From assembly GCA_016789845.1 (NCBI GenBank), contig JAEUQA010000013.1, positions 186,001 to 250,000 on the forward strand: DNA of 64,000 nucleotides, read 5' to 3'. Made by a program: the position numbers and the translations under genes. The DNA is from Chromatiales bacterium (lineage in GTDB: Bacteria; Pseudomonadota; Gammaproteobacteria; Steroidobacterales; GCA-2729495). Under the pieces are notes generated by a model. The model was not told the origin of the DNA, did no database searches, and worked only from the letters and a program-made list of their open reading frames with translations. Each line of letters begins with the position of its first letter. The stretch's first letter is position 1. This document shows positions 50,686-64,000 of the stretch, piece after piece.

Positions 50686-51807
50686 CTAGCGATACTCCGC
50701 GCCCTCCTCCGCCGCCATCCTCACCTGCTCCATCCCCAGCGCCGACCGCCACCCCGATCCCAGTGCTTCCACCCGCCGCCCTTCTACCCACGCATGGGCG
50801 CCGGCCAGCTCCGCCTGCCCGTAGGCCCACACCGTGATCCGCCGGGAGCGTTCCCGGTCATGGGGCAGCCGGGCGGCATCGAAGGCCGCGGCCAGCGCGT
50901 CGCCGCCCTCCAGGTTGGACTCCCGCCAGCGGCGCAGGTGTTCCGGGTGGGCCAGGTGCTCGCGCTTGGCGAGGTTGCACGCCGGGTGGCTGAAGACGAA
51001 GTTGTGGCCGAGGTCCACCGGGTAGCGGGACCAGGCGATGAAGTGATCCAGGTCGCCGGCGCCGCCGACGCGGGAGCGGCAGTAGAAGCAGCGGCCCGAC
51101 TGATGGTCCCGCAGGATCTCCCGCCAGGGAGCCAGCGTCGCCCGGTCGGTGCCGAAGAGGAAGCCTTCCAGGCTCGCGGTCTCGCCCAGCACCTCGCGAT
51201 TCCCCGGGATGCGCTGCACGCGGGCCACCCACGCGCCGCGCACCAGGTTCGTGACTAGGCCGTGGAAGTTCCGGAAAGCGGCGGGGACGCCCGGGAGCAG
51301 GCGGATGCGGTCGTCGCGGAACTCGGCCTTGCGATACAGGAACTCCGTCGCCTCGCCGGGCACGGTCTGCAGTTTCCAGAGAGGCATACCACGAATCACG
51401 CTGGCAACCTTGTTGCGCAGCGCGAGCCAGGCGCTGGTGTCCTGCCGGAGTGCCGCGAGACTGCCGCCCGGCGCGCGGCTCCGCGCCGCGACGATGTGGG
51501 TGATGACCGCCGCCTGCCCATCCGTATTCTGCAGGAGCGGCTTCAGCGGCGACCGATCCGGGGTCACGGCTGAAGCCGCTCCTGCGGGGGGCGAAAACGG
51601 CAACGCCTGCCGCCAGTAGTACTCGACGAACTTCTCCGCAATCTCCGGCACGGCGAGCCAGAGGCCGCCGTCCGCGCCGGGCTCCTGCTCCACCGACAGG
51701 TCCGCCAGCGCCTGCAACAGCGCGTACTTGTAGGTGGAGGTGAAGAGCCCTTCGTCCAGCAGCCGCTGCAACTGGCGGAGGAAGCGGAGGCTGGACTCCG
51801 CCGACAT
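50686..51807 (-). CDS. HNH endonuclease-like protein with an in-frame repeat
   Basis: A 373-residue protein with a C-terminal HNH nuclease motif: CFYCRSRVGGAGDLDHFIAWS...NFVFSHPACN (metal-binding CxxC, then DH, N and C). The N-terminus is helical (LRFLRQLQRLLDEGLFTSTYKYALLQALADLSVE). Residues 74-94 (PAGAASAVTPDRSPLKPLLQN) are encoded by a palindromic repeat found elsewhere in the window and appear inserted. It starts directly against the HIT stop. HNH-HIT pairs occur in defence-associated loci, but function here is unproven. Confidence 0.82.
   Translation of the reverse strand: MSAESSLRFLRQLQRLLDEGLFTSTYKYALLQALADLSVEQEPGADGGLWLAVPEIAEKFVEYYWRQALPFSPPAGAASAVTPDRSPLKPLLQNTDGQAAVITHIVAARSRAPGGSLAALRQDTSAWLALRNKVASVIRGMPLWKLQTVPGEATEFLYRKAEFRDDRIRLLPGVPAAFRNFHGLVTNLVRGAWVARVQRIPGNREVLGETASLEGFLFGTDRATLAPWREILRDHQSGRCFYCRSRVGGAGDLDHFIAWSRYPVDLGHNFVFSHPACNLAKREHLAHPEHLRRWRESNLEGGDALAAAFDAARLPHDRERSRRITVWAYGQAELAGAHAWVEGRRVEALGSGWRSALGMEQVRMAAEEGAEYR
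51531..51585. repeat. GTAGGAGCGGCTTCAGCC-family palindrome inside the HNH gene
   Basis: Arms 51531-51553 and 51563-51585 pair imperfectly around a 9-base loop. The element matches the repeats at 22381 and 26032 with a few changes (GCAGGAGCGGCTTCAG...). It lies in the HNH reading frame without breaking it. Confidence 0.8.
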
Positions 51808-53693: not shown

Positions 53694-53921
53694 ATGGACA
53701 AGGACATTTCCAGGCTCGAGGCAGAAGCTCGTCAGCTGACTGCCCGGGACCGGGCCCGCCTTGTGCGGCGCCTGATCGCCACCCTCGACTCCGGGCAGGA
53801 CCAGGATGCCGAGCAGCTCTGGCTCGACGAGGCCGAGCGGCGCCTGGCGGCCTATCGGCGCGGCGAGACGACCGCAATCCCCGGCGACGAGGTCTTCGGC
53901 GAACTCATCAAGCGCGCCTGA
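53694..53921 (+). CDS. Addiction-module antitoxin-like protein
   Basis: A 75-residue helical protein: MDKDISRLEAEARQLTARDRARLVRRLIATLD, then LWLDEAERRLAAYRRGETTAIPGDEVFGELIKRA. This matches the 'putative addiction module component' (TIGR02574) family, antitoxins of RelE/ParE-type toxins. The stop overlaps the toxin start by one base (TGATG), so the two are coupled. It is opposite in strand to the neighbouring genes. Confidence 0.85.
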   Translation: MDKDISRLEAEARQLTARDRARLVRRLIATLDSGQDQDAEQLWLDEAERRLAAYRRGETTAIPGDEVFGELIKRA

Positions 53922-54214
53922 TGGCCGGCTACCGCTTCCTTCCGGAAGCACGCCGGGAACTCGCCTCGGCCGTCGCCTGGTATGACAGTGAATTTCCCGA
54001 CCTGGGGCAGGAACTCGCCCGCGAGACGCAGCGCCTCTGTGCGCTGATCAGTGAGTCGCCCCTGGCGGGGATGGAAATCCGGCCTGGGATTCGGCGCCGC
54101 CTTCTTCGCCGCTTCCCGTACGCCATTCTGTATGCAACAGACAATGTGGGAGTGCTGGTGGTCGCCGTCATGCACCAGCGACGGCGGCCGGACCACTGGC
54201 AGCGCCGGGCTTAG
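53921..54214 (+). CDS. RelE/ParE-family toxin
   Basis: A 97-residue toxin: YRFLPEARRELASAVAWYDSEFPDLGQELA, then SPLAGMEIRPGIRRRLLRRFPYAILYATDNVGVLVVAVMHQRRRPDHWQRR. The VVAVMHQRRRPDHW tail is typical of ParE/RelE-like toxins. RelE acts as ribosome-dependent mRNA cleaver and ParE on gyrase; which applies here cannot be told. Overlaps the antitoxin by one base. Confidence 0.88.
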   Translation: MAGYRFLPEARRELASAVAWYDSEFPDLGQELARETQRLCALISESPLAGMEIRPGIRRRLLRRFPYAILYATDNVGVLVVAVMHQRRRPDHWQRRA

Positions 54215-54675: not shown

Positions 54676-55188
54676 TCACCGAAAATTGGTTAACAGGGGC
54701 ATTTCGCCGGGCAATTCCTGCAAAGGACCAAGCGTGGACCTGAGAGAGCCCTCGTCTGGCAGTTCCTTGGCTTGCCAGCGGAATATGGGGATACCCGCCG
54801 CACCCAGGGCCTGGTCCTTCTTGGCATCGGCGATCTTGCGTTGCGGCTTGGTGTGGCTCGCGTCATCGAGCTCGATGACCGCGATGATGCTGGAGTCCTT
54901 TCTGCAGATGACGAAATCCGCACTCATTCGATCAATCCGATTGGTCCACGTCCGGAAGTTGTTGCCCTTCTTCACGCCCAGCATGCGCGACAAGCCGACC
55001 TGGGCCAGTACGATGTTGTCCGGAAATGCCTTCAGCAAACGAAAGTACAAGACCTGCTCCGGAACGGTCAGTGGCTTCCTGGCGTAGAACGGCCATGGAC
55101 CCTTATCTGACCCCTTGGCGCCGGATTTCATCGCGGCCACGACGACCAGGATCAAGATGACCAGCGCCAACAGAATGAGAATGTTCAT
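54676..55188 (-). CDS. DUF2726-family membrane-anchored protein
   Basis: A 170-residue protein. An N-terminal helix MNILILLALVILILVVVAAM anchors it. The DUF2726 domain follows: YARKPLTVPEQVLYFRLLKAFPDNIVLAQVGLSRML and VICRKDSSIIAVIELDDASHTKPQRKIADAKKDQALGAAGIPIFRW. This D...ELDD..H..RK.AD..KD pattern is like a restriction-nuclease-fold domain, often associated with DNA or RNA processing; catalysis is unproven. The start at 55188 is chosen because of the helix. Confidence 0.85.
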   Translation of the reverse strand: MNILILLALVILILVVVAAMKSGAKGSDKGPWPFYARKPLTVPEQVLYFRLLKAFPDNIVLAQVGLSRMLGVKKGNNFRTWTNRIDRMSADFVICRKDSSIIAVIELDDASHTKPQRKIADAKKDQALGAAGIPIFRWQAKELPDEGSLRSTLGPLQELPGEMPLLTNFR

Positions 55189-55248
55189 TGCACTACTCCG
55201 ACACCACGTATCCAGCCACAAAGACCGACCCTATCCGCATTCCAGGCA

Positions 55249-55583: not shown

Positions 55584-56243
55584 CTATTCCACCACCGGAT
55601 AACAGGCATCCCCCCACAGCGTCTCCGGGTGATCGAGCATGATCTCGATGACCACCGGCACCAGCCGGCCCATCAGGGCCGTGCAGTCCCGGATCTGGTC
55701 CCGGTTGACGGAGCTGTTCCAGGTGGCGCCGCCGTGCATGAGCTGGTTGCGGAGCGTGTAGATCCGGGAGAGGGCCACCCCGAGCACGGTCACGGTGTCC
55801 CGGGCGGCGAGCGCCCCCTTGGCCACCCGCTTGGCCTCGTCAAAGCGGCGCTTCCACTCGTCCTCCGGCAGGGCGCCGTTGTGGAAGTTCCAGAAGTCCT
55901 GGAACACGTAGGGGTTGTCCAGCAGCACCCGGATGTTGCCGGGGAAGGCCTCCCACACCAGCCCGTCGAGGCGCGTCCGGTCACCGTCCAGGTCCACGAG
56001 CTTCTGGAGGAAGGCCCGGAAGGTGCGCTGCTCGTCCAGCCGGTAGCGCTCGTCGATGACCGTTGCGTACGCAGCGTTGAACGCGATCCAGAGGAAGATG
56101 AACTCGCCGTCCCTGTCCCCCTGCCCCGCCTGCAGCTCGGCCCGGTGCAGCCAGCTGATGGCGCGGTGGACGCGGAGGGCAAGGTTGGGCGGGTGCGCGT
56201 GGCGTTCGGCGCGTTGGCGGGTTTTGAGGTGGTCGTGGTTCAT
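55584..56243 (-). CDS. HEPN-like protein
   Basis: A 219-residue protein. It has a HEPN-like all-helical organisation: LHRAELQAGQGDRDGEFIFLWIAFNAAYATVIDERY at the start and the RX4-6H-type motif RNQLMHGGATWNS toward the C-terminus, the signature of HEPN ribonucleases. In defence islands HEPN proteins act as RNases or toxins, usually paired with MNT or other partners; no MNT gene is next to it. Confidence 0.75.
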   Translation of the reverse strand: MNHDHLKTRQRAERHAHPPNLALRVHRAISWLHRAELQAGQGDRDGEFIFLWIAFNAAYATVIDERYRLDEQRTFRAFLQKLVDLDGDRTRLDGLVWEAFPGNIRVLLDNPYVFQDFWNFHNGALPEDEWKRRFDEAKRVAKGALAARDTVTVLGVALSRIYTLRNQLMHGGATWNSSVNRDQIRDCTALMGRLVPVVIEIMLDHPETLWGDACYPVVE

Positions 56244-56736: not shown

Positions 56737-57006
56737 CTATCCATCGAGATTCGAGTTGATTGCTTCAAGCAATACTAGCGCCCGCCGCAACCCCGCACAC
56801 GCGTCATTGACGTCCGCCCGATTATTGCGCGCCTGAACACCCGTCATGACGTCTGCGGCAATCGCAACTAACACCTTCGCGGCGTCTGGCCCTATCAGTG
56901 GCTCGACTGCGTGGCGAACTTCCAGCACCGCTCGTTGAACCTGGTCTTTGCGGCCGAACAGAGTTTGAAGTTGGTCGACATGAGAGTTCTCCCAGACCGT
57001 TGGCAT
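56737..57006 (-). CDS. Small hypothetical protein
   Basis: An 89-residue helical protein without recognised domains: MPTVWENSHVDQLQTLFGRKDQVQRAVLEVRHAVEPLIGPDAAKVLVAIAADVMTGVQ. A strong AAGGAGC lies upstream of ATG 57006. It follows the 130-residue gene by 56 bases on the same strand and may be part of the AddAB-like operon. Confidence 0.6.
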   Translation of the reverse strand: MPTVWENSHVDQLQTLFGRKDQVQRAVLEVRHAVEPLIGPDAAKVLVAIAADVMTGVQARNNRADVNDACAGLRRALVLLEAINSNLDG

Positions 57007-57062
57007 TGGGTGCTCCTTGGCACAAGAATCGTCGGTTCGAGGGCATTTGGTAACCGCACGCC

Positions 57063-57455
57063 TCACCCCTTCTTCCACGGCTCAGGCGCATCGAGGCGAG
57101 CCCGGTTGATGACCACCGTCTCCTCGATCGGCCAGCCCATGGTCCAGTACTTGTGATCGTCGATCGCCCAGTAGATGTGGCGCACCCGGTAGTAGAACTC
57201 AGCGTAGCCGAAGCGCCGGATGCAGGTGACGAAGCGGTCGAAGTCCGCCTGGCCCTGCGCGCCGGACTCCCACTTGCGGACGACATACTCGTGCGGGGCC
57301 GTCTCCCGGTACGTGACGGCCTCGCGCCAGCGCCGGGCGGCAATGAACTCCCGAGCCCACGCGAGATCTTCCTCGCTCGGCACCTCCCGCAGTTCGGGCA
57401 AATCGAGCTTCCCCTGGGGAAGGGGATCGCCATGGACGCCGTATCTCACGCTCAC
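57063..57455 (-). CDS. Small protein coupled to the AddA-like gene
   Basis: A 130-residue protein, not membrane-bound. Distinct features: APHEYVVRKWE, a central FDRFVTCIRRFGYAEFYY, and KYWTMGWPIEETVVINRAR, a Trp/Tyr-rich fold I do not recognise. GTG 57455 overlaps the AddA-like stop by four bases (GTGA), showing translational coupling. By context it is an accessory factor of the helicase-nuclease, but this is inference. Confidence 0.7.
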   Translation of the reverse strand: MSVRYGVHGDPLPQGKLDLPELREVPSEEDLAWAREFIAARRWREAVTYRETAPHEYVVRKWESGAQGQADFDRFVTCIRRFGYAEFYYRVRHIYWAIDDHKYWTMGWPIEETVVINRARLDAPEPWKKG

Positions 57456-60400
57456 AACACGGCATCCACCTGCCCGGACGTCATATAAACGAGAAGACCA
57501 CGCCCAGCCCCCGTCAGCGCCAGGTAATCCTTCAGCTGCTGCCGGTACTTCGCCCGCTGCTCCCCCGTCGGGGCCACATCACTCTTCCAGTCGATGACAG
57601 TAGTCACCTTGCCCGCTTCATCCAGCACCAGGGCATCCGCAATCCCCGCCGTAGCAATCTCCCGATTCGGCTGCCCGGAATCCACGACGCAACCGTAGAC
57701 GGGCACCTCCACCACCAACCGGCCCCTCACCCCCGCAATCTCCGGCATCGCCAAAGTAGCCTGCACCACCGCCGCCATCTCCCCCGGCGAGAACCCCCTG
57801 GCCGGATCATCCACCGGCATCTCCCCCAACTGCACCAGCAACTCCCCCGCCCGGGCCTCCAGCACTCCCGCCTCCTCGACCAACTCCCCGGTCAGGATCT
57901 CCTCCAGCAACTTGTGCAGCACCCGGCCCCGCACCGCGCCGCCCCGGATCGCGGGCCGCGCGAAATCCTCCTCCGGCCAGTCGCGACTGCCGGACTCTTC
58001 CTCAACCGGGGCATCCCCCACGCCTTCGTGCCGGCTGGGCTGCCGCCATTCGACGCTGCGCGTCGCGGCCGCAATGCGCCCGCCTTCCTGCGCAAACAGC
58101 TTGGCGGTCTGCTTGTTCACAGTATCGGCAGGCCGGGGCGGCAGCGCGTCACCCAGATGGATGAGGTCCAGCGCCGGCAGCTCCGGTATGCCGAGCTCGA
58201 CCCGTTTTAACCAGGGCGACTTACCGCCGCTCAGATTAGGTAAAACCAGCAGCTCGGCGGCCCGAGTGCAGGCGACGTACAGCAACCGGATGTCCTCGCG
58301 CTCGCCCTGCGCATCCTCCTCCGCCTTCAGCGCCTCGTAGGCCGCCGTGGCCACGGCACCGAACGGCCCGTGCAGCTCGTCCCGCACCCGGTCGTGCAGG
58401 ATCCCGGACGTGCCACTCCAGTCCGAGCAGGTGTTCACCGGGATGACGATCGGCCACTCCAGGCCCTTGGCGGAATGCATGGTGATGAGGTTGACGGCCT
58501 GCTCCTCCGCGTCGGGCCGGCCCTCCACCTGGGACTCCGCGTCCTCCCACTTCGCCCGCATGTCCGTGGCAAAGCTGCGCAGGCCGCGCACCGCGTAGGG
58601 CCGGGCCATCTCGAGGAACAGGTCCACGTTGGCCAGCGCCCGCTCGGCGCCGCCGGGGTGGCGCTGGCGAATCACGGCCCGCACGCGCAGTTCCTCCACC
58701 GCCTGGGCCAGCAGGTCGAAGGGCGTGGTGCCGCGCGCCCGGCGGTACAGGCCCTGCAGGATCCGCAGCACCTCGCCGGCCACGGGATTCGCCACCAACT
58801 CCGCATCGGTGTGCAGCGTCAGCTTCGGGATGCCGTCATGGCCCTCGTTGGCCGGCAGCCCCGCGACGATGTCCAGCAGTTCCTCCTCGGTGAGGCCCAC
58901 CACCGGCCCGCGCAGGAGCGCGCCGAAGGCCACCGTGTCCCGGGCGTCGGCCAGGGTGCGCGTGATGGCAATCAGGTCCTGGATTTCCTGGCGGCGGAAG
59001 AAGCCCTTGCCCGCCTGGCTGGCGACCGGGATGCCCAGCTCCTCCAGGGCGCGCTCGTAGCGCCACAGCTGGGTGCCGCCCGGCGCCAGCAGCGCGATGT
59101 CGCCGGGGCGGGCGAGGGGATCGTCCCGCTGCACCTGCAGGCGCTGGCTGCCGATCAGCCGCTTGCAGAGCGCCGCGACGGCCCGGGCCTCGGCCTCGCG
59201 GATGTCGTTCACGCCGGGTTCCTCGTCTTCCTCCAACCCAGTCACCTGCACGTCCAGGCGCACCACGCGGGGCTCGTCGTTCGGCGGCCGGCGCGTGGCG
59301 GACAGATCCTGGAAGCCGGGCTGCTGGTCCGCGCTCAGGGGCCCGCGGAAGCGCTCGTTCACCCAGGTGAGGATGGGCTCCAGCGAGCGGAAGTTGGCGG
59401 TGACCTCGAGGATGTTCCCCGGGTGCTGGCGGCGGATCGCCTCCCGGGCCTGCACGTAGGTGTCCACGTCGGCGCCGCGGAAGCGGTAGATGGCCTGCTT
59501 GGGATCGCCCACGCAGAAGAGCGCACCGGGGCGCAGCTGGCGTTCCGCCCAGGGCAGTCCGGGCGCGCCCTCCCCGCACAGCCGCCAGAGGATCTCGGCC
59601 TGCACGGGGTCCGTGTCCTGGAATTCGTCCACCAGCACGTGCCGGTAGCGCCGGCTCAACGCCTGGCGCACGGGCTCGTGGCTGCGGAGCAGTTCCCGGG
59701 CCTGCTGGAGCAGGTCCTCGAAGTCCAGCAGCGCGGCGTCCCGCTTGTACTCGCGGAAGGACTGCAGCGTCTCGCGCAGCTCCTCGACCAGCGCCGAGAA
59801 CGCGGCGGCGCCGACGAGGGGCTGGAGGGCGGCCCAGGCGGCGCCCACCGCCTGGTAGAGCGCGTCGCCCTCGTCGGCGATCCGCGCGCCCTCCGCCTTC
59901 GAGCGCCCGTGCTGGCCCGCCACCGCCTGCCACTTGCCCTTGCGGCCCCACTTGCGCCAGATGAGTTTCTGCGTGTGGGCGCTGCACACGGGCGGGTCGT
60001 CGGCGCACTGCATGAGGCCAACCGGGTCGCCGCCACTGAGAAGTGTCCGGTACCTTTCCACGAGCACGCGGAGTTCGTCGGCCAGCTCCGCCGTTGTCTC
60101 CTCCAGGAAGCCAACGCCGTTCAGCCAGGCGACGAAGCCCGCCACCGCCGACTCCAGCGCGGCCAGCGCCGGGCGCCAGTCGCCCGCCGCCGCCGGCCGC
60201 GCCGTGCGATGGTCCTCCACCGCCTCGGCTATCTTCTGCAGCTTGCCCTCCGCCGCCGGCCCCGCGGCCACCACGTAGGCCGCCACCGCGCCGTCGGGCG
60301 TGTCGGTGTCGAGCCGCTCCCGCAGGAACGCCTCCACCAGGTCCTCCCAGGCGAGGGTCGCGGCGGCCGGGTCCATCACCCGGGCGCCCGGGTCCATGCC

Positions 60401-60796
60401 GGCCTCCACCGGGTAGGGCCGGATCAGCCCCTGGCAGAAGCCGTGGATGGTAGTGGCGGTGAGCTCGCCGATGCTCTGGCGGGCGGCTTCGAGGTTGGCG
60501 CGTTGTCCGGGCGTGAGCCCCTTGGAGAGCGCCGCGTCCATCCCCGGCGGCAGCTCCCCCGCCAGCACCTGATCGAGGAACTCGGCGATGCGGGTGAAGA
60601 GCTGCCCCGCCGCCAGCTCCGTGAAGGTGATCGCCGCGATCTGCCGGGGCGCCACCCCCGCCGCGAACAGCAGCACCACCCGCCCCGCCATAAGCGCCGT
60701 CTTGCCCGACCCGGCGCCGGCCTCCACCAGCAGCGTGGACCAGTGGTCCGTCAGCGCCCGCAGGCGCGCCTTGTCGTCCGGCAGCGGCTTCGTCAC
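57452..60796 (-). CDS. AddA-like UvrD/RecB helicase-nuclease
   Basis: A 1114-residue SF1 helicase fused to a nuclease. Walker A AGAGSGKT (27-33), motif II VLVDEFQDTD (387-396), motif III GDPKQAIYRFRGAD, motif V TMHSAKGLEW, and motif VI LLYVACTRA are intact. The C-terminal RecB-type PD-(D/E)XK nuclease has GIADAL and VIDWKSD (Asp and Lys near 1069 and 1071) plus the helix YRQQLKDY. GTG 60796 gives a four-base overlap with the AddB-like stop and is preferred to GTG 60808. It probably unwinds and degrades DNA with the AddB-like partner. Confidence 0.88.
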   Translation of the reverse strand: MTKPLPDDKARLRALTDHWSTLLVEAGAGSGKTALMAGRVVLLFAAGVAPRQIAAITFTELAAGQLFTRIAEFLDQVLAGELPPGMDAALSKGLTPGQRANLEAARQSIGELTATTIHGFCQGLIRPYPVEAGMDPGARVMDPAAATLAWEDLVEAFLRERLDTDTPDGAVAAYVVAAGPAAEGKLQKIAEAVEDHRTARPAAAGDWRPALAALESAVAGFVAWLNGVGFLEETTAELADELRVLVERYRTLLSGGDPVGLMQCADDPPVCSAHTQKLIWRKWGRKGKWQAVAGQHGRSKAEGARIADEGDALYQAVGAAWAALQPLVGAAAFSALVEELRETLQSFREYKRDAALLDFEDLLQQARELLRSHEPVRQALSRRYRHVLVDEFQDTDPVQAEILWRLCGEGAPGLPWAERQLRPGALFCVGDPKQAIYRFRGADVDTYVQAREAIRRQHPGNILEVTANFRSLEPILTWVNERFRGPLSADQQPGFQDLSATRRPPNDEPRVVRLDVQVTGLEEDEEPGVNDIREAEARAVAALCKRLIGSQRLQVQRDDPLARPGDIALLAPGGTQLWRYERALEELGIPVASQAGKGFFRRQEIQDLIAITRTLADARDTVAFGALLRGPVVGLTEEELLDIVAGLPANEGHDGIPKLTLHTDAELVANPVAGEVLRILQGLYRRARGTTPFDLLAQAVEELRVRAVIRQRHPGGAERALANVDLFLEMARPYAVRGLRSFATDMRAKWEDAESQVEGRPDAEEQAVNLITMHSAKGLEWPIVIPVNTCSDWSGTSGILHDRVRDELHGPFGAVATAAYEALKAEEDAQGEREDIRLLYVACTRAAELLVLPNLSGGKSPWLKRVELGIPELPALDLIHLGDALPPRPADTVNKQTAKLFAQEGGRIAAATRSVEWRQPSRHEGVGDAPVEEESGSRDWPEEDFARPAIRGGAVRGRVLHKLLEEILTGELVEEAGVLEARAGELLVQLGEMPVDDPARGFSPGEMAAVVQATLAMPEIAGVRGRLVVEVPVYGCVVDSGQPNREIATAGIADALVLDEAGKVTTVIDWKSDVAPTGEQRAKYRQQLKDYLALTGAGRGLLVYMTSGQVDAVL

Positions 60797-63477
60797 GGGA
60801 GGTCCCACAGTTCAGGCAGGGGCGCGAGGGCCGCCGACGCGAGCGGCAGCTTCGCCAGCAGGTAGATCTCCTTCGCGTTGCCCGGGAGGGCGAAGCTGAG
60901 CTCGTTGTCCAGGCGCTCGCCGCTGTCCGGGCCGATCACCGCGCGGCCCGCGGCCACCTGGTCCCGGGCGGCCTGCAGGTAGTGCGCGATCCGTTCGAGC
61001 GTGGCGGGCGGATCCGCCAGCGTGAGCAGCAGCCCGTCGTCCCGGGGATAGAGCAGGCGCGCCTCGACGTTCACCCGGCCGCCCAGCAACACCTGCACGG
61101 CGCTGGCGTAGAGACAGCGCTGCAGCTCCTGGCCGCCGTCCACCTGGATCTCTTTCTTCGGCACCTTGCCGGTCTTGTAGTCGGTGACCCGGGCCCGCGT
61201 TCGATCCCCCGACAGGTCCAGCCGGTCGATGACGCCGCCGATGGTGAGGCCGGTGCCCGGGATCGCGACGGGCGCCCGGATGTCCCAGGGCCAGTGGCCG
61301 TCCGGATACGTCCCGTCGTCCGTGCCGCCGAAGGGCACCTCGCCCCAGGACGCCTGCCCCGGGAGCGGCGGTTCCTGCCAGCCAAGCGCCGTGAGCGCCT
61401 GGGTGCGCGCATCGATGAGCGTCCGCAGCCAGATGAGCCGGGGCGGCACCGGCAGGCCCAGCTCGAACTCCTCGCCCGCCTCGCGAGCAGCGGCCATCAC
61501 CGCCGCCTCGATGCCCGCCGGTGGCGTTCGGGCGAAGCCAACCTTGGCCTCCAGGCTGGCGAGCGCCAGCTCCAGCACCCGGTGAGTCAGGTTGCCGAAG
61601 GCCCTCGGGTCCAGCACCAGCGGCTCCTCCACCTCCTCGGGCGCCTTCCAGCCCAGCGCGTACTGCCAGACGAAGCCCAGCGGGTCCCGGCTCAGGCGGC
61701 GCAGGCGGCTGGCCGAGAAGCGCCCGGCCAGCGCCCGCAGGAGTACCGGGTGGTCCGCCCGCACCAAGCCGTCGTGGGCGGTGAGTTCGGGCTTGTGCCA
61801 GTCCTGCCAGCAGGTCCGCGCGCTCCGGGCCCGTGGCGCCTGCGCAAACTCCGCCGGCCGCGCGAGCAGGCGATCGGCCTCGCTGGCGGCGTGGGCTGGC
61901 ACGGCCTCCCGCCGCAGGTACAGCTCCTGCGCTTCGCCCACGCCGGACTCCCGCAGCAGCGCGCTCACCCCGGTCTGCCGTCCCTCGGCATCGCGCCTCG
62001 AGCGGGAGAGTACGAGCTGCCGGGACGTGGCCTTGAGCAGGGTCCGGTAGTCGCGCCGGTCCCGCTCCGGCACGGGCACCGGGTTCAGGTCGGCGGAGTC
62101 GATGATGTGGGTGGGCAGCAGCGGGTCTTCGCTCTGGGTGCGCGGCCAGCCCCGGCTGGTGAGGCCAAGCAGGCGCACGTAGGCCCTCGGCGCGGCGGCC
62201 GCGTCGGCGGCGCTGCACCAGACCAGGTTGGTGGTGGGGTCCGTGTCGTCGGCGACGCGCACGGTGGTGAGCGTCACGTCCAGGGCGGCGGCGGGACCGT
62301 CGCGCAGGGCCTTCTGCCAGATCGCGAGCGCGCGGCCGGCAAGCAGGCGGGTGCCGATGGCCGCGGCGTCGGCGATGCCGCCGTCGAGGAGCTTGATCAG
62401 TTCGCGGAGCACGGGCCCGAAGTCATGGCCGTCGGGCCACTTGCGGGGCTCGGCAATCACCGCCGCCCACTGCTCCGCCTTCAGCAGCGGCGCGTCCGCG
62501 GGGAGGATCCGGTGCCAGTCGGCAGGCAGCGCCTCCGTGGCCGCCGTCATCCCGCGCACCAGGGACAGGACGCGCCGGACCCGGCCCTGGCCGAGGCCGT
62601 TGATGAGCACCTCGGCGAGCGCGGCGGCGGCCTGGCCGTCCCGGGTGGCCAGCGCGGGCCGGCCGTGCACGAAGGCGAGCGGCAGGTTCGCGTCGGCGGC
62701 CATGGCGCCCAGGTGCACGTCCCAGTCGCCGGTGGCGGGCGCCGCGATGGCGATGTCCTCGGGCCGCGCAGCGCCGCTGGCGAGCAGGCCGCGGGCCCAG
62801 CGGAGGGCTTCGAGGGCTTCGTGGCGGGGGTTGGCGCAGGAGACTCGTGTGATTGCAGGCGTGTGCCGGGGCCTGGGCTCGATAGTGATAGCGGTGGCCT
62901 GGAGCCAGGCCGGCGGTTCGCTGTGGCCGAGTTGCCAGGTGACTGGCACGACGTCGGCGAGCTTCAGCAGCAGCGGGCGCCAGACGGGGTCCAGGTCGGG
63001 GACGCCCTGCACGGTGATGGGGCCGAGCACCTTGGGTGCGTGGGCCAGGCGCCCGAGGGCGCGTTCGACGAGATCGGCCGGGCGGAGCTGGGCGGGTGGC
63101 AGGCGGCACTGCACGGCCTGCTCGAGGCGGTGGATCGTGGCGAGGCGAGGTTCGGTGCTCGTTGCTGCCCGGGCGCCCAAGTCGATGCCGGCGACCCAGG
63201 CGCGCTGGAGGGTGGCGGTGACGGCGCGGACCATGCCGGGGAGGTCACGGAGGGGGGCCATGTCGCCGAGATCGATGGTGGGGTCGGAGAGGACGGCGTG
63301 GACGGCGGATTGGAGGGATTCGGTGGGGATGGGGGTGAGGAAGCCGCTGGCGAGGCGGGCGGCTAGGTGGGCGGGGGTGAGGAGTTGGAGGCCGTGGGTG
63401 GATTCCCGGGCGGCTTCGAGGGCCGCGTGCTGGCGCACCAGGTGGCCGGTTATCAGGAGGGTACAGCGGCGGAGCAT
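60793..63477 (-). CDS. AddB-like PD-(D/E)XK nuclease
   Basis: An 894-residue protein, the presumed partner of the AddA-like gene. The N-terminal part resembles AddB/RecC-like inactivated helicase domains (LQLLTPAHLAARLA) without a Walker A motif. The C-terminal nuclease is GVIDRLDLSGDRTRARVTDYKTGKVP (Asp...DYK) followed by a QELQRCLYA helix. No AddB-type iron-sulfur Cys set is visible. Starts 53 bases after the methyltransferase stop. Together the pair would be a two-nuclease motor. Confidence 0.85.
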   Translation of the reverse strand: MLRRCTLLITGHLVRQHAALEAARESTHGLQLLTPAHLAARLASGFLTPIPTESLQSAVHAVLSDPTIDLGDMAPLRDLPGMVRAVTATLQRAWVAGIDLGARAATSTEPRLATIHRLEQAVQCRLPPAQLRPADLVERALGRLAHAPKVLGPITVQGVPDLDPVWRPLLLKLADVVPVTWQLGHSEPPAWLQATAITIEPRPRHTPAITRVSCANPRHEALEALRWARGLLASGAARPEDIAIAAPATGDWDVHLGAMAADANLPLAFVHGRPALATRDGQAAAALAEVLINGLGQGRVRRVLSLVRGMTAATEALPADWHRILPADAPLLKAEQWAAVIAEPRKWPDGHDFGPVLRELIKLLDGGIADAAAIGTRLLAGRALAIWQKALRDGPAAALDVTLTTVRVADDTDPTTNLVWCSAADAAAAPRAYVRLLGLTSRGWPRTQSEDPLLPTHIIDSADLNPVPVPERDRRDYRTLLKATSRQLVLSRSRRDAEGRQTGVSALLRESGVGEAQELYLRREAVPAHAASEADRLLARPAEFAQAPRARSARTCWQDWHKPELTAHDGLVRADHPVLLRALAGRFSASRLRRLSRDPLGFVWQYALGWKAPEEVEEPLVLDPRAFGNLTHRVLELALASLEAKVGFARTPPAGIEAAVMAAAREAGEEFELGLPVPPRLIWLRTLIDARTQALTALGWQEPPLPGQASWGEVPFGGTDDGTYPDGHWPWDIRAPVAIPGTGLTIGGVIDRLDLSGDRTRARVTDYKTGKVPKKEIQVDGGQELQRCLYASAVQVLLGGRVNVEARLLYPRDDGLLLTLADPPATLERIAHYLQAARDQVAAGRAVIGPDSGERLDNELSFALPGNAKEIYLLAKLPLASAALAPLPELWDLP

Positions 63478-63530
63478 CTAACGCCCAGTATGAACGAGGC
63501 GAACACGGTTTATCAGGTACTTCTAGAAGG

Positions 63531-64000
63531 TCAACTGAGCAAGTTGTAGACGATGTCGGCAATCTGCCGTGCGAGCCACGGCGGCACCGCATTACCCACC
63601 TGCACGTACTGCTGGGTCCGGTTACCCTCGAAGAAATAGTTGTCGGGGAACGTCTGCAGCCTCGCTGCTTCCCTGACCGTGAGACTCCGACACTGCTCGG
63701 GATCATAGTGAATAAAGTAATGGCCGTCTTTGGCGATGTGGCTGGTTACCGTGCTTGCCGGCTGGCTTTCAGCCTGCACCTTGAACCGGTCGGCAAACTT
63801 CCCCGAATGCCAGTTCGCGTGGTCCGGCGCCAGCGACTCAGGGAAATTCCGTGACCGGGGTGAAGCCCCGTCATGCAGGCGGGCGTAGACCGAGCAGAAG
63901 AGGTAGCGGGCGAGGTCTGCCCGAATGTGCCCCCGCGACTGATGATTGACGAACCCGCCCAGTCGCTCATCCCTCAACCATTCACGCAGCGGCTCCCCGC
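63531..64000 (-). CDS. C5-cytosine DNA methyltransferase, C-terminal part
   Basis: Only the last about 156 residues are in the window; the N-terminal SAM-binding and PC motifs lie beyond. Recognised are the target-recognition end ([40 protein letters not shown]), motif IX/X ([20 protein letters not shown] and [18 protein letters not shown]), typical of Dcm-like enzymes. It modifies a cytosine in a specific DNA sequence. First gene of the operon with the AddB/AddA-like genes. Confidence 0.9.

Follow-up and report, generated by a model that had tools for sequence, protein, structure and literature searches.

Does a DNA methyltransferase gene that is closely followed by genes for an AddAB-like helicase-nuclease specify one dedicated defence system, or do two systems meet at this point? 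The question is raised by a 64,000-nucleotide stretch (the window; contig C56:186001-250000) of a Chromatiales bacterium (assembly GCA_016789845.1; 3.5 Mb, 89 contigs), which ends in genes for a C5-cytosine methyltransferase (MTase), an AddB-like nuclease subunit, an AddA-like helicase-nuclease and a small protein. An earlier note, made from the letters of the window, had read these four as one system. Judged from gene content and neighbourhoods, two modules meet in this "MTase-AddAB operon": a MORC/Z1 restriction-modification (R-M) module and an accessory AddAB.

Two modules at the methyltransferase gene

The genes at the end of the window are the following (lengths in amino acids, aa; ORF, open reading frame):

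63531..64000, minus strand: C5-cytosine methyltransferase, C-terminal part (Pfam PF00145 DNA_methylase, 6.4e-18 for the tail)
C56:249531-251057, minus strand: the whole C5-methyltransferase, 508 aa (PF00145, 4.6e-40 for the full protein)
60793..63477, minus strand: accessory AddB-like nuclease subunit, 894 aa (Pfam PDDEXK_1, 2.8e-19)
57452..60808, minus strand: accessory AddA-like helicase-nuclease, 1118 aa (Pfam UvrD-helicase, 1.6e-49, and PDDEXK_1)
57063..57455, minus strand: protein of 130 aa without known domain; 4-base overlap with AddA
56737..57078, minus strand: 113-aa ORF (or 89-aa version); no known domain

All genes named in the earlier note proved real, on the minus strand and at the positions given there, as did the 4-base overlap of AddA with the 130-aa gene and the 53 bases between the stop of the MTase and the beginning of the AddB-like ORF. 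Its identification of MTase, AddB and AddA also held, by Pfam matches and, for AddB, by a predicted structure that matches AddB chains (see below). The 4-base overlap it reported between AddA and AddB depends on the start: the listed AddA ORF overlaps AddB by 16 bases, and an internal GTG start gives 4. The GTG is a plausible start, the overlap being 1-4 bases in homologues, and the true start of AddA is probably at 60796. Its 89-residue gene is present inside the 113-aa ORF, which is the longer version listed. A promoter or terminator pattern was searched for in the 53-base gap and none was found, which allows co-transcription of MTase and AddAB to be inferred, not proved.

Contig C56 extends 27 kb beyond the window end. 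Extension in this direction, as the earlier note had advised, recovered the whole MTase with its motifs FAGPGG, PPCQ, ENV, QARHR and GNAV intact, as the last gene of a MORC/Z1 module that otherwise lies beyond the window (C56, to about 258959). In order of transcription, a GHKL ATPase, a Z1 helicase, a DUF4420 protein and an AIPR protein are followed by a divergent Vsr and then by the MTase:

Upstream of MTase: MORC-like GHKL ATPase, MzaB-like (1.1e-107)
Upstream of MTase: Z1-domain helicase, MzaC-like (1.3e-167), with Walker A GHVQSGKT and the motif DTLLQMGRWFG
Upstream of MTase: DUF4420 PD-(D/E)XK protein, MzaD-like (3.1e-20; Pfam, 1.2e-61)
Upstream of MTase: AIPR protein, MzaE-like (1.5e-112)
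Upstream of MTase, divergent: Vsr (6.9e-43)
C56:259522-260343 (L003:10523-11344), divergent: EcsC family protein (3.5e-30), the upstream limit of the module

The GHKL ATPase is called MORC-like and may be of MORC or paraMORC type, the former being marked by a motif in the S5 domain. By its gene content, the upstream module is a MutL/MORC-type R-M system of the third operon type of Iyer, Abhiman and Aravind (2008; PMC2292703), in which a helicase with the motif DThhQXuRhFG and a protein of restriction endonuclease (RE) fold are often joined by cytosine MTases and Vsr. Here too, as in the "type II" system of PMC9523054, a GHKL ATPase, a superfamily II helicase, an RE-fold protein, a cytosine MTase, Vsr and AIPR stand together, and the helicase motif reads DTLLQMGRWFG in the Z1 ORF. 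The locus differs from the published type in that an AddAB-like pair follows the module; a term search of PMC2292703 gave no AddA, and RecB only within a domain comparison. With the MZA system (mzaABCDE; Gao et al, 2020, as cited in PMC9523054) it shares MzaB-, MzaC-, MzaD- and MzaE-like proteins in matching order, at scores (360, 559, 73 and 377 bits) that are all below the NCBIfam equivalog cut-offs (850, 1500, 420 and 1050). In contrast to MZA, it has a C5-MTase and Vsr and lacks the MzaA sigma factor, the position preceding the MzaB-like gene being held by the divergent EcsC family protein; in a similar mza-like system, the sigma factor is mostly missing (PMC9523054). Some kilobases beyond the EcsC gene lie alaS, recX and recA.

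Whether AddAB belongs to this module was read from related loci. A class-wide search with the MzaC-like protein gave seven other substantial Z1 loci, at each of which 14-20 kb was read. All six genes (GHKL, Z1, DUF4420, AIPR, C5-MTase and Vsr) are present in four (L091, L092, L094 and L096), and five in L093, where Vsr was not found; L095 carries a divergent version of the module, and L097 Z1 and DUF4420 only. An AddAB-like gene was seen in none of the seven. AddAB relatives at 62-66% identity, in turn, sit without an MTase. As Z1 loci hold the MTase without AddAB, the MTase belongs to the MORC/Z1 module and AddAB is an addition here; as the neighbours of AddAB vary among systems, the two are not specific to each other. 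In L091-L096, C5-MTase and Vsr stay close though gene order and strand vary.

Neither Pfam nor NCBIfam nor PADLOC gave a match to the 130-aa protein. Homologues of it occur in 4 of 98 relatives, and nine plasmids, Rhizobium plasmids among them, gave partial matches. None adjoins AddAB in the compared loci, and the protein was rejected as a conserved small AddAB partner; because it is not conserved with AddAB, it is probably not part of that module. The 113-aa ORF (or its 89-aa version) likewise has no match in Pfam, NCBIfam or PADLOC, and none of the compared loci carries a homologue of it close to AddAB.

The accessory AddAB pair

The host genome has a second, ordinary AddB-AddA pair on contig C15 (about 891 and 1131 aa). 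Its AddB scores 636 bits against TIGR03623, a housekeeping form that is over the cut-off in 88 of 99 genomes, whereas the window AddB reaches 38.6 bits against a cut-off of 299.6. The two AddB proteins match over only 23 residues, and the two AddA proteins are 30% identical over 503 aa. On these scores, accessory and housekeeping AddAB are two distinct pairs. That it might be the only end-resection enzyme of the genome was rejected in view of the pair on C15. Three UvrD-type proteins were found in the genome, one UvrD/Rep-like and two AddA, and thus no RecB was seen.

The helicase and nuclease motifs of the window pair are intact. AddA has GAGSGKT, DEFQDTD, CTRA and the C-terminal DWK intact, with the catalytic residues conserved; in AddB, H632, D751, D766, K768 and Q786 are invariant in 22 relatives, and no Walker A was found in the 22 aligned rows. 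AddB of Bacillus subtilis carries a four-cysteine iron-sulphur cluster around its nuclease. This cysteine pattern is absent from the window AddB, in which one cysteine is near-invariant (C556, 21 of 22), and the pair is therefore named AddAB-like, an accessory variant, and not plain AddAB. The predicted AddB structure (mean pLDDT 76.7, pTM 0.58) matched AddB chains of solved AddAB first (4cei_B, E 3.2e-19), then AdnA and RecC; a sequence-profile search of solved structures with AddB gave no match, so that fold comparison alone gave matches.

Like AddAB of B. subtilis (PDB 3u4q, 4cei) and the proteobacterial TIGR03623 pair, the window pair is encoded by two adjacent genes, and AddA adjoins AddB in all loci of the accessory family. 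AddA again combines a UvrD-type superfamily 1 helicase with a C-terminal PD-(D/E)XK nuclease, and AddB a C-terminal PD-(D/E)XK nuclease with a predicted helicase-like fold without motor. In contrast to those pairs, it is accessory, rare and mobile, occurs in addition to the cell's own AddAB and lacks the iron-sulphur cysteine pattern.

A full-length accessory AddB is present in 3 of 98 relatives (4 of 99 with the own genome counted). Among 368 genomes of the class no further one was found, weak partial matches being excluded; a class-wide AddB profile search gave short stretches of ordinary AddB at weak E-values, which were not counted as members. Two of 397 sampled other Pseudomonadota carry it, a GTDB scan gave nine loci, and 60 plasmid records (39 conjugative) have it at about 37-49% identity; these counts come from samples, and the plasmid and alphaproteobacterial loci are partly redundant. 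A phage origin was rejected, as no AddB relative occurs in 50,697 phage records or in a scan of viral contigs. PADLOC-DB 2023 has no model for AddB. No paper describing the family was found in the open-licence literature, an absence that is weak evidence and leaves novelty provisional; as far as found there, and with the same proviso, accessory AddAB is not catalogued as a defence gene.

Neighbourhoods of accessory AddAB

Forty-two loci, including the window, were compared, with neighbours named by PADLOC or annotation; a neighbour immediately adjoins AddB or AddA or, in some loci, is separated from the pair by a single divergent WYL regulator. The order of MTase, AddB, AddA and small protein, which the earlier note had suggested seeking in other genomes, is not conserved, and the neighbours of AddAB differ from locus to locus. 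Counting either side, a defence module adjoins AddAB in 28 of the 42:

BREX-1: L072, L114
Hma (HmaA/HmaB): L113, L120-L122 (HmaA, E=0 in L113)
Type III modification genes with Snf2 or restriction helicases: L076, L116, L119, L123, L124
Shango SngABC: L073-L075, L078, L084 (Zorya next to Shango in L075)
ZacABC, on the 3' side: L071, L082, L083, L120, L123, L124
Gabija (GajAB): L087, L089, L090
Type II CBASS (cyclase with E1-E2): L077
Multiubiquitin-ThiF-DUF6527: L082, L083 (related genes in L084, L115)
MTase-DEAD-AAA-REase set: L079
DUF499: L032
MrfA Zn-domain protein and UvrD: L029
MORC/Z1 module: the window

No defence neighbour was seen in the other 14 (L025-L028, L030, L031, L080, L081, L085, L086, L088, L117, L118 and L125), some of which have only toxin-antitoxin-like or single weak matches. 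In L026 (1-3617), a protein with SIR2-like/TIR match and an nSTAND1-WD40 protein lie ~6 kb upstream of the AddAB-like pair, a possible defence neighbour.

On the AddB tree, 27 loci have a system on the 5' side, and among these it switches at least 15 times. BREX, Hma or type III genes accompany AddAB copies that are ~80% identical, and neighbours are thus exchanged around a stable AddAB pair. A WYL regulator (L072:12771-13694; L071:12942-13811; also L113, L114, L116 and L119-L124), about 60-85% identical, stands divergently between AddB and systems as different as BREX-1, Hma and type III R-M, as though the interchangeable modules had a single regulator in common. In L072 (20047-23388), L073, L074, L113, L114, L121 and L122, AddA is followed by a helicase of ~1113 aa without PADLOC match, which may be a third gene of the AddAB module in one subgroup.

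At the window itself, a PADLOC scan of ten locus proteins gave none of the signatures of BREX, DISARM or Zorya (PglZ/BrxC, DrmA/DrmB, ZorA/ZorB), the DrmMII matches being to the MTase only; this bears out the earlier statement that the locus matches neither these three systems nor Gabija. Gabija likewise pairs a UvrD-type helicase with a nuclease partner, and AddA matches GajB models via its helicase domain, but the window locus has no GajA match, and in L087, L089 and L090 a separate Gabija stands beside AddAB. A further likeness is to the auxiliary or backup nucleases of BREX and BREX-related systems (PMC12839542), nuclease effectors that are also recruited beside modification-based defence. 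The effectors in that paper are HNH, HKD, PD-(D/E)XK, TOPRIM/OLD, HEPN, PIN and Schlafen; AddAB, AddB, RecB, RecBCD and UvrD are absent from its text.

Proposed role of accessory AddAB and alternatives

On balance, accessory AddAB is probably an exonuclease that is shared among systems, depends on DNA ends and breaks down DNA once the neighbouring system has opened it, with specificity given by the partner. Gene content, motifs, the AddB fold, rarity, the second AddAB, repeated adjacency to differing systems and context switching on the tree are read from sequence; from these we infer that AddAB acts in defence, and on ends made by its neighbour. The mechanism draws on family knowledge, the intact motifs and adjacency. 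AddAB and RecBCD load on double-strand ends, and in AddAB the processing of ends is under the control of Chi. At the window, the C5-MTase would mark self DNA, Vsr would repair T:G mismatches from deaminated 5-methylcytosine, and the GHKL ATPase, the Z1 helicase, the DUF4420 PD-(D/E)XK protein and the AIPR protein would act on unmodified DNA. AddB-AddA, with one active helicase motor and two PD-(D/E)XK nucleases and separate from the cell's own AddAB, would load on double-strand ends made where the neighbour cuts or stalls foreign DNA, and then digest that DNA. Discrimination of self from non-self would come from the partner system, not from AddAB. As AddAB would need DNA ends only, it could plug in beside many differing systems, and it would have moved among them on plasmids and in islands.

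The pair might instead be a second recombination and repair enzyme of mobile elements, serving replication, conjugation or integration of large plasmids and sharing insertion hotspots with defence. The 60 plasmid records, mostly conjugative and often with AddAB near repABC, ScpB/DUF1403 or integrases, would fit this, as would the loci without defence neighbour L080, L081, L085, L088, L117 and L125 and the gammaproteobacterial chromosomal copies, which are often among housekeeping genes. This explanation is nevertheless unlikely: 15 of 20 plasmid loci directly adjoin defence, often a few bases off or across one divergent WYL regulator, and chromosomal alphaproteobacterial copies behave alike (10 of 13), whereas six 50-kb stretches taken from these plasmids at a distance from AddAB, 300 kb with 266 annotated genes in all, contained only names of toxin-antitoxin type and none of the components of these defence systems. 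A named system other than toxin-antitoxin thus adjoins 15 of 20 plasmid loci against 0 of ~33 equal control spans (Fisher p = 2.5e-9; with near-duplicates merged, 10 of 15 loci, p = 4.6e-7), the control being rough, with few, author-chosen stretches that were judged by annotated names and not by the same hidden Markov model scan. The roughness of this control is one of several points that weigh against a shared effector in defence. Defence genes cluster in islands generally, so adjacency need not mean joint function. Moreover, L025-L028, L030 and L031, which have no defence neighbour, include most of the window's own clade; within this gammaproteobacterial clade, a directly adjoining defence module is limited to the window and L029, and L025, L027, L028 and L031 have none. 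As judged from these neighbourhoods, Alphaproteobacteria show a strong association with defence, and the clade of the window a weak one.

Quite improbable is a pair that needs no partner, be it a stand-alone anti-phage system or an inhibitor-resistant backup for host AddAB/RecBCD. For some copies no neighbour is recognised, AddB and AddA always occur together as the pair, and its sequence is far from host AddAB, as expected of an inhibitor-resistant copy; yet the frequent tight coupling, for instance a co-directional SngC stop and AddB start a few bases apart, suggests a useful partner. The proposal of the earlier note, a single dedicated system of MTase, AddB, AddA and small protein with methylation directly controlling AddAB, has very little probability left. 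The 53-base spacing, the common strand and the absence of a promoter or terminator pattern between the genes speak for it, but the neighbourhood data largely refute it, and a dedicated MTase-AddAB operon was rejected on them: the MTase lies in a complete upstream module and goes with that module in loci without AddAB, AddAB occurs elsewhere with other systems or none, and the small protein is not conserved beside it. That note would have taken its proposal as refuted if AddAB were the sole end-resection enzyme of the genome and the MTase were not conserved next to it in relatives; the former does not apply, given the ordinary AddAB on C15, and the latter does.

A wider and less probable reading is that this distinct family has become a general-purpose immunity effector. 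An unchanging core of AddB and AddA, in many loci accompanied by a WYL regulator and followed by a helicase or ZacABC, would be the shared DNA-degrading engine for BREX, Hma, type III R-M, Shango, Gabija, CBASS, ubiquitin-like and MORC-type systems, while the recognition modules beside it are swapped. For several modification-based systems, and for BREX in particular, there is no fully agreed route of foreign DNA destruction, and a mobile end-degrading enzyme beside many such systems would be a candidate answer. A core repair enzyme would then join the machines recruited into immunity, and annotation tools would gain a family whose AddB is without a model in PADLOC-DB 2023.

Further genes downstream of the pair

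The defence setting that the earlier note had seen around these genes was supported, but not every gene label in it. Two ORFs it had called HNH (50686-51807, with an HNH-like stretch by eye) and HEPN (55584-56243) have no Pfam match up to E 0.1, so both labels are by eye alone. Its DUF2726 protein was confirmed (54676-55221; 2.9e-21), a few genes downstream of the AddAB pair, and at 53694-54214 on the plus strand two overlapping small genes have, by eye, the look of a RelE/ParE-type toxin-antitoxin pair.

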